From: a virus
Virus record (IMG/VR): IMGVR_UViG_3300031963_000003
Location: 1 to 64,000 of that record
Direction: 5' to 3' (one strand)
Length of the DNA stretch: 64,000 bases
The notes beneath the pieces are model-generated. The model did no database searches. It saw nothing but the letters and a program-made list of their open reading frames with translations, and was not told the DNA's origin. Position 1 is the first letter of the stretch; every line of letters begins with the position of its first letter. Positions 1,804 to 4,933 of this stretch are shown here, one piece after another. The position numbers were made by a program, and so were the translations under genes.

Positions 1804-1805
1804 AG

Positions 1806-1877
1806 TAGGCCCACCAAGACTCGAACTTGGAACATCTCATTAGAAGTGAGAAGTTATATCCCTTTAACTATGGGCCC
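1806..1877 (-). tRNA. tRNA-Arg (TCT)
   Basis: The anticodon loop CTTCTAA gives TCT (AGA codons). The acceptor GGGCCCA pairs with TGGGCCT. CCA is not encoded. Confidence 0.92.
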
Positions 1878-1880
1878 ATT

Positions 1881-2081
1881 AAAATGAAAACCTCCTTCTA
1901 CGCTCACCGTAGTTGTAGATTTGATTGGACATAGTTTACTGTCCACCTGTTGACGTGCACATCAGAGCAGGGTCCATCACAGTTCACTTTGGGTCATGTA
2001 ACTCATTTGGGTAGCTAATCCCAAGAGCCAAAGTTTCTTTCAACGGTGCTAATCCGTCCTCTGTAAGGAGTTTTTCATTTT
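1881..2081 (-). ncRNA. ~200-nt multi-hairpin RNA element
   Basis: The two ends (1881-1897 and 2065-2081) are near-perfect reverse complements over about 17 nt. Between them lie compact hairpins: ACGG-ATTAGCA-CCGT, TTGGG-ATTAGCTA-CCCAA, GGACA/TGTCC and CTACG/CGTAG. Two of the loops share ATTAGC. This looks like one folded RNA, not a spacer. It does not match a family I recognise and is not tRNA. Confidence 0.6.
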
Positions 2082-2083
2082 TG

Positions 2084-2168
2084 TACCGAGGATGGGAGTC
2101 GAACCCACACGAACATTACTGTCCAAGGGATTTTAAGTCCCTCATGTCTACCATTCCATCACCTCGGC
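2084..2168 (-). tRNA. tRNA-Leu (TAA)
   Basis: The anticodon loop CTTAAAA gives TAA. It has a long variable arm and acceptor GCCGAGG/CCTCGGT. A boxA-like element lies about 20 nt upstream. Confidence 0.92.
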
Positions 2169-2894: not shown

Positions 2895-3106
2895 AATTAC
2901 CCCACCTGAGATTACGGTGAGTAGTCATTTCGGTTTATTTTCTTTCAAACAACCTGAAGGGCGTCCCCGTTAAAAAAAGTCAACACTACTGGGAGGAGGT
3001 GTGTCGCTCTCCTTTGTTCCCATGAAGTCCCACTCGCGCCGTAGACTTTCTGCGGAATCATTCTTAAAGTCTTGATTCGAAGACTCTGAGTATCTCTTAC
3101 TCATTG
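2895..3106 (-). ncRNA. hairpin-rich non-coding segment
   Basis: There is no supported ORF and no tRNA arm set. Minus-strand hairpins include TGAGTA/TACTCA (3087-3103), AGTCTT/AAGACT with a CGAATC loop (3068-3085) and CCG/CGG. The segment separates tRNA-Asp from tRNA-Ser and may be a stable RNA or processing spacer. Confidence 0.45.
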
Positions 3107-3258: not shown

Positions 3259-3264
3259 AATAGT

Positions 3265-3347
3265 GGGTCAGAGTAGTCACGGCCACCTCTGTTCCTTCTG
3301 ACCCTTGTCATAACCGTGGCAAGATGTGGCTCGACCCTAATTATGAC
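3265..3347 (-). ncRNA. tandem hairpins between tRNA-Thr and tRNA-fMet
   Basis: Two adjacent stem-loops: GGGTCAGA/TCTGACCC (3265-3304) and GTCATAA/TTATGAC (3307-3347), each with a long loop of further pairing potential. There is no ORF or tRNA here. Confidence 0.5.
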
Positions 3348-3353
3348 CATTTG

Positions 3354-4538: not shown

Positions 4539-4541
4539 ATG

Positions 4542-4679
4542 AAAGGAAAGAGGAAGATGGTTCAGTGGACATCCTCTTTTACGATTGGCGTTACTTCAGG
4601 TGAATATCTGCAAACTCCGAATACATCATCCAATATTCACTCTCGAGATATTGATGTATCATTCCCCAATCAACCTTTG
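4542..4679 (-). ncRNA. structured RNA between tRNA-Lys and tRNA-Val
   Basis: Nested pairings: an outer AAAGG/CCTTT, a hairpin AAAGAGGA/TCCTCTTT (4547-4579), a GATTGG/CCAATC closing helix, and inside it an AT-rich stem (TACATCA/TGATGTA). There are no coding frames or tRNA arms. The organisation suggests one folded RNA. Confidence 0.5.
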
Positions 4680-4863: not shown

Positions 4864-4933
4864 TGGACACTGTGGGAATCGAACCCAATCGTTCTGATTG
4901 CAAATCAGACGGTCTGCCGTTGACATCAGGCCC
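4864..4933 (-). tRNA. tRNA-Ala (TGC)-like, degenerate
   Basis: A clear anticodon arm (TCTGA-TTTGCAA-TCAGA, TGC) and a T-loop-like TTCGATT are present. The acceptor GGGCCTG against AGTGTCC has two mismatches, though G3-T70 (the Ala identity pair) is present. The T-stem is only 4 bp. It may be a decaying tRNA-Ala or one needing editing. Confidence 0.55.

Follow-up and report, generated by a model that had tools for sequence, protein, structure and literature searches.

The probable full-length form of freshwater-1 RNA in phage tRNA arrays, with palindrome-switching loops that indicate pairing between copies

To our knowledge, few natural RNAs assemble solely with their own copies, and most of the known ones are large. 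GOLLD (RF02032) forms a 14-mer and ROOL (RF03087) an 8-mer nanocage (PMC12286853). In OLE RNA, loop L9.3 contains a symmetric kissing tetranucleotide that occurs as GGCC, GAUC, and AGCU. An argument from palindrome switching was used for both OLE L9.3 and GOLLD L21a, and it agrees with the cryo-EM structures of these RNAs (PMC12286853). In HIV-1, likewise, the loop at the tip of the dimerization initiation site is the palindrome GUGCAC, through which two copies kiss (PMC7357161). Freshwater-1 (RF02979) is described in Rfam by a model of 62 nt, in which a hairpin loop is drawn as UGCA with no self-pairing role assigned. Its Rfam type is sRNA.

The window analysed here is the first 64,000 nucleotides of IMG/VR virus record IMGVR_UViG_3300031963_000003. 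The record as a whole comprises 233,563 bases and has phage genes for terminase, portal, and major head proteins; the nearest cultured relatives of its portal protein are T4-like phages, Flavobacterium phages among them. The first 5 kb of the window include a minus-strand tRNA array, with 22 tRNAs called by ARAGORN and 23 matches found with Rfam. At the array end, 4864-4933 gives a weak Rfam tRNA match (31.8 bits) without an ARAGORN call. An RNA of approximately 200 nt is, like the tRNAs, encoded on the minus strand, at 2082-1878, its 5' end near 2082 and its 3' end near 1878. ARAGORN places tRNA-Leu(taa) (2083-2168, minus strand) directly upstream of it and tRNA-Arg(tct) (1805-1877, minus strand) directly downstream. 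Five other spacers of the array (1657-1804, 2895-3105, 3259-3352, 4539-4678, and 1430-1504) have diverged relatives in other phage arrays at about 75-94% identity; none of the five reaches an Rfam cut-off, and they resemble distinct elements of the array, structured or conserved.

A sequence-only reading of the 2082-1878 spacer had found no family that it recognised, a claim that fails through the very result that it had named as refuting, an Rfam match to a known family: RF02979 matches 1981-1920 on the minus strand over 62 nt with 84.7 bits (gathering cut-off 72, E 2.4e-18, model positions 1-62). The features that mark membership are present, namely the adjacent hairpins CCUG-CUC...CAGG and the next stem (helices 5 and 6). 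RF02979 spans only these two hairpins, P6 and P7, or about 30% of the RNA. The other ~140 nt, comprising the paired ends, P2, P3, P4, P5, and P8, lie outside the model, as do variants whose loops read differently. Where L6 holds another palindrome or P7 takes another form, the score often drops under the RF02979 cut-off, and 10 of 28 phage records fall below it. The window RNA is most likely the full-length form of freshwater-1.

Seven productive pattern scans of IMG/VR yielded approximately 130 phage contigs with the element, most of which hold the whole RNA. Three loci (L084-L086) were dropped as unrelated matches. Coding-sequence false positives of loose gapped patterns (L030, L031, L045, L050, L052, L058-L066, L068-L070, L072-L078, and L080) were also dropped, because they lacked the GAAAG and P7 context. 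When the scan used a pattern for the 5' half only, a 3' half resembling the Rfam model stood at the expected distance in every locus except three truncated copies (L092, L096, and L130) and loci cut by a contig end, which shows the two halves to be a single unit. R1, a covariance model of the whole RNA (207 positions, 49 training sequences), scores window 1878-2080 at 214 bits, the window being one of its training sequences, and finds divergent subtypes beyond the training set at 105-184 bits.

Folding of the minus strand gave -59.2 kcal/mol against -44.3 +/- 4.3 for shuffled sequences (z = -3.46), a value that none of 200 shuffles equalled, with weaker folding of the plus strand (z = -2.96). 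The sequence-only reading had described a multi-hairpin RNA of about 200 nt with 17-nt pairing ends, and both descriptions were borne out, the RNA reading on the minus strand with five hairpins. Its ends, AAAAUGAAAAACUCCUU (2081-2065) and AAGGAGGUUUUCAUUUU (1897-1881), are complementary by eye at 16 of 17 positions and form P1 (5' strand 2065-2082, 3' strand 1881-1897), a stem predicted as two segments of 9 and 6 bp around a small internal loop. P1 sits in poorly aligned columns of the homologues and was given a separate end-pairing test. Among 62 sequences, an RNA's own 5' and 3' ends paired at a mean of -12.9 kcal/mol, compared with -6.8 for ends mixed between homologues. The pairing is kept despite quite different end sequences.

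P1 encloses two domains and a final hairpin, all read here on the minus strand. In the first, P2 pairs UUACAG (2061-2066) with CUGUGA (1977-1982); this helix 1 is 98.8% paired, with double changes GC to UA and AU to UA. P2 encloses the hairpin P3 (2042-2059, helix 2), with double changes in 4 of 5 pairs and loop L3 at 2047-2053, and the long hairpin P4 (1986-2036, helix 3), with double changes in 6 of 7 pairs. Two loci, L081 and L109, have an insertion of ~50 nt in P4. The second domain is closed by P5, in which UGGA (1973-1976) pairs with UCUA (1916-1919); helix 4 is 96.9% paired, with double changes in 4 of 4 pairs. P5 encloses P6 and P7. P6 (1946-1971), CCUG-CUC-UG...CA-A-CAGG, is the most conserved part of the RNA: CCUG/CAGG is invariant in alignment A1, an invariance partly imposed by patterns that demanded parts of P6 (CCUGCUCU, CAGG), and CUCU is invariant as well, but was demanded by several search patterns. 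P7 (1926-1945, helix 6) exchanges stem and loop as a block between two forms, GNACAGUAAACUAUGUNC and GAUGGGGAACAAACCAUC, whose loops may be alternative tertiary-contact modules. The last hairpin, P8 (CUACGGUGAGCGUAG, 1898-1912, helix 7), is missing from a second subtype (L090, L101, L112, L121, L127, L144, and L153-L160), most members of which have a conserved single-stranded CGGAG ahead of the closing stem.

Across 49 sequences, the seven helices (36 pairs) are paired in 97.8% of cells, and 27 of the 36 pairs show two-sided changes. The covariation score is 0.424, compared with 0.174 +/- 0.007 for shuffles and at most 0.082 for slid controls, so that covariation, the absence of which the sequence-only reading had named as refuting, is strong. 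The presence of a conserved, structured RNA in the tRNA array, as the same reading had held, is genuine; the fold and its conservation are seen directly in the alignment. Judged from these sequences, the comparative support for the predicted fold far exceeds that from folding energy. A noncanonical covariation of A-A to G-G (57 AA, 24 GG) links the base after the P2 5' strand with the base before the P2 3' strand, near 2059 and 1984, and suggests that a specific tertiary pair forms where P2 meets P4.

The loop of P6, L6 (1955-1960), is the self-complementary hexamer GUGCAC. Among 86 homologues the hexamer is GUGCAC in 71, UGGCCA in 10, UGCGCA in two (within GUGCGCAC), AGCGCU in one, and GUCGAC in one, so that 85 are palindromic. 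The single exception is GUACAC in L119, which breaks the central pairing; this locus is without a close tRNA, and the copy may be decaying. L6 was left unconstrained in all but the earliest pattern scan, and two scans demanded nothing of the 5' side of P6. Four of the five alternative hexamers are palindromic, with a binomial p of 7e-5 on the central four bases (chance 1/16) or 3e-7 on all six (1/64). On a tree built without the loop, L6 underwent 13 state changes, a count that, like all loop-change counts here, rests on many weak branches and could be inflated by block exchange between phages. Some L6 changes may indeed be block exchange by recombination and not separate mutations. In phylogenetically independent pairs, taken from supported branches only, the outer bases of the central tetranucleotide co-changed 7:0 (p = 0.016); the inner pair changed 2:0, too few for a test. 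The stem is interrupted in several homologues, yet the hexamer stays palindromic there (GUGCACU and GUGCACA loops). Loops L3, L7, and L8 were also searched for hexamer palindromes, and none was found.

Repeated AUUAGC loops had also been pointed out in the sequence-only reading. The motif does stand between GG and CC in two hairpins, CGG-AUUAGC-A-CCG (P3) and GGG-AUUAGC-UA-CCC (P4), but as a repeat it appears to be partly coincidental, because L3 and L4 evolve differently: L3 stays close to NNNNGC, whereas L4 switches among UAGCUA, UAAUUA, and UCGCAA. A contact between L3 and L4, for which the window offers UAGC and GCUA, was considered and rejected, since L3 remains constant while L4 changes. 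In the window, L4 is the self-complementary hexamer UAGCUA (2012-2017), and its central dinucleotide is self-complementary (AU or GC) in 82 of 83 homologues. UAGCUA and UAAUUA interchanged 10 times with no intermediate, a count subject to the same weak branches, and phylogenetically independent pairs on supported branches gave 8:0 for the centre (p = 0.008). The evolution of L6 and L4 thus visibly preserves palindromes. About a third of the homologues (27 of 83) have UCGCAA in L4, where self-pairing is limited to the central GC (-2.3 kcal/mol), and L4 is for this reason the weaker of the two loops.

The position of the RNA among tRNAs is observed directly in its homologues. A tRNA was counted as close when it lay no more than 160 nt upstream or 130 nt downstream of the core, which places it within roughly 100 nt of the RNA ends; 115 of 133 loci have one, and many of the 18 loci without one stop at a contig edge. 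All 174 neighbouring tRNAs are on the same strand as the RNA and they have many different anticodons. On three contigs the tRNA arrays are accompanied by tmRNA genes (L008:13561-13958, L019:13556-13957, and L132:7375-7771). Each of the 28 phage records searched contains exactly one copy. The freshwater-1 element is a phage RNA. Searches of 396 bacterial genomes of one phylum with RF02979 and R1 recovered a single genome, the MAG that the pattern scans had turned up before (L087/G001), on which ground a bacterial chromosomal origin was rejected. A blastn search of cultured phages and plasmids gave no useful match to the RNA. We also rejected a cis-regulatory leader, because what lies downstream is usually a tRNA or unrelated sequence.

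Adjacent loop bases cannot pair inside one molecule, and the palindrome-preserving changes in L6 and L4 therefore point to pairing between copies. They indicate that copies of freshwater-1 RNA would pair via kissing loops, and self-association appears well supported by this pattern of loop evolution. We consider it quite probable that freshwater-1 is a phage RNA of ~200 nt, freed from a tRNA precursor, whose copies associate as a homodimer or larger homo-oligomer through kissing of L6, with a weaker contribution from L4, and that this assembly acts as a scaffold or decoy. The RNA would be co-transcribed with its flanking tRNAs and is probably freed by their processing, with RNase P setting its 3' boundary and 3' tRNA processing its 5' boundary; standard cuts at these tRNAs would release it almost exactly at the paired ends. 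The ends would close after excision and protect the RNA. Symmetric kissing between self-complementary L6 hexamers would then join copies, with L4 as a second, weaker contact, to give the homodimer or larger assembly. A role as an RNA scaffold or decoy in infection, comparable to GOLLD and ROOL, is the most conjectural step; it is favoured by analogy, because GOLLD and ROOL occupy the same niche and GOLLD sometimes the same phage. With two different self-complementary loops, each molecule might even hold two neighbours and so build a ring, cage, or filament; freshwater-1 would then be a compact counterpart of GOLLD and ROOL, ~200 nt long and made from tRNA precursors, sometimes in the same phage as GOLLD. 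This extension is tentative, and we regard it as somewhat doubtful.

The same loops could instead belong to a monomeric structured RNA, with L4 and L6 making tertiary contacts within the molecule or with a partner RNA and their palindromes being incidental. The compact multi-helix fold over most of the RNA would suit a monomer, and the AA to GG covariation near P2/P4 hints at intricate tertiary structure. However, a fixed partner would not impose self-complementarity on each new loop, and a mutual-information scan, in which L6 was masked, showed no column group tracking L4; we regard the monomer as unlikely. Dimeric DNA-binding proteins typically recognise inverted repeats that have no spacer, and L6 together with its stem often makes up a perfect inverted repeat of 12 bases, so that the self-complementary loop could be the site of a two-fold symmetric protein, on RNA or DNA, instead of a second RNA. 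This is quite improbable given that a single protein would keep one sequence, whereas five different hexamers are seen, that the loop caps a hairpin inside a covarying RNA, and that the hexamer is palindromic even where its stem is interrupted.

Phage small RNAs can also work as antisense or sponge RNAs, and freshwater-1 might pair with a host or phage target via its loops, a reading to which the highly conserved and possibly single-stranded L3 and CUCU lend themselves. Its loops, however, vary often and in a palindrome-preserving manner, and the invariant parts lie mostly within or beside helices, which leaves antisense action very improbable. Scarcely credible is a spacer that serves the processing or folding of the tRNA precursor and is functionless once excised: although the RNA lies exactly between tRNAs and its paired ends adjoin both tRNA ends, ~160 internal nucleotides and the loop palindromes are kept, at a single copy per phage, next to tRNAs that vary.

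The middle third of the RNA, the 62 nt of RF02979, was known; the full unit of ~200 nt and the palindrome switching in L6 are new. What was a 62-nt catalogue entry becomes a complete gene with defined ends, located in phage tRNA arrays, and the Rfam freshwater-1 model needs extension. A small, mutable molecule also makes the function of array RNAs testable. If copy-to-copy kissing, the reading that we prefer, is true, freshwater-1 would offer an easily made system of ~200 nt for studies of RNA self-assembly.

Compared with its Rfam entry, the unit described here shares the P6 and P7 hairpins and the conserved bases over the full 62-nt model, but it extends to ~200 nt with P1-P5 and P8, and the loop drawn there as UGCA is here part of a self-complementary hexamer. 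The GUGCAC of L6 is common to the HIV-1 dimerization loop, although that loop is a packaging signal of genomic RNA with flanking purines and the likeness is an analogy of mechanism only. OLE is a large RNA that is not described as a tRNA-array RNA in PMC12286853, but its dimer loop L9.3 has the same signature as L6, symmetric kissing palindromes that switch. ROOL is, like freshwater-1, an RNA of phage and prophage tRNA islands, with a much larger model of 574 positions; neither the window nor any of 28 freshwater-1 phage records matched RF03087 in a covariance search, but the control search was silent as well. GOLLD differs in sequence and fold and is at least twice as long, but is also phage-encoded near tRNA islands, with symmetric kissing loops that switch palindromes. 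A covariance search for RF02032 found nothing in either the window or the 233-kb record that contains it, whereas other records scored above 240 bits. Of 35 phage records with freshwater-1, 9 also contain GOLLD (L008:11836-12243, L109:1277-1693, and the records of L015, L043, L048, L091, L102, L110, and L141), 8 of the 9 above the Rfam cut-off. Freshwater-1 thus has in common with the homo-oligomeric RNAs GOLLD, ROOL, and OLE self-complementary loops that switch palindromes (L6 and L4), and with GOLLD and ROOL a location in phage tRNA islands, where freshwater-1 shares the strand of its neighbouring tRNAs.
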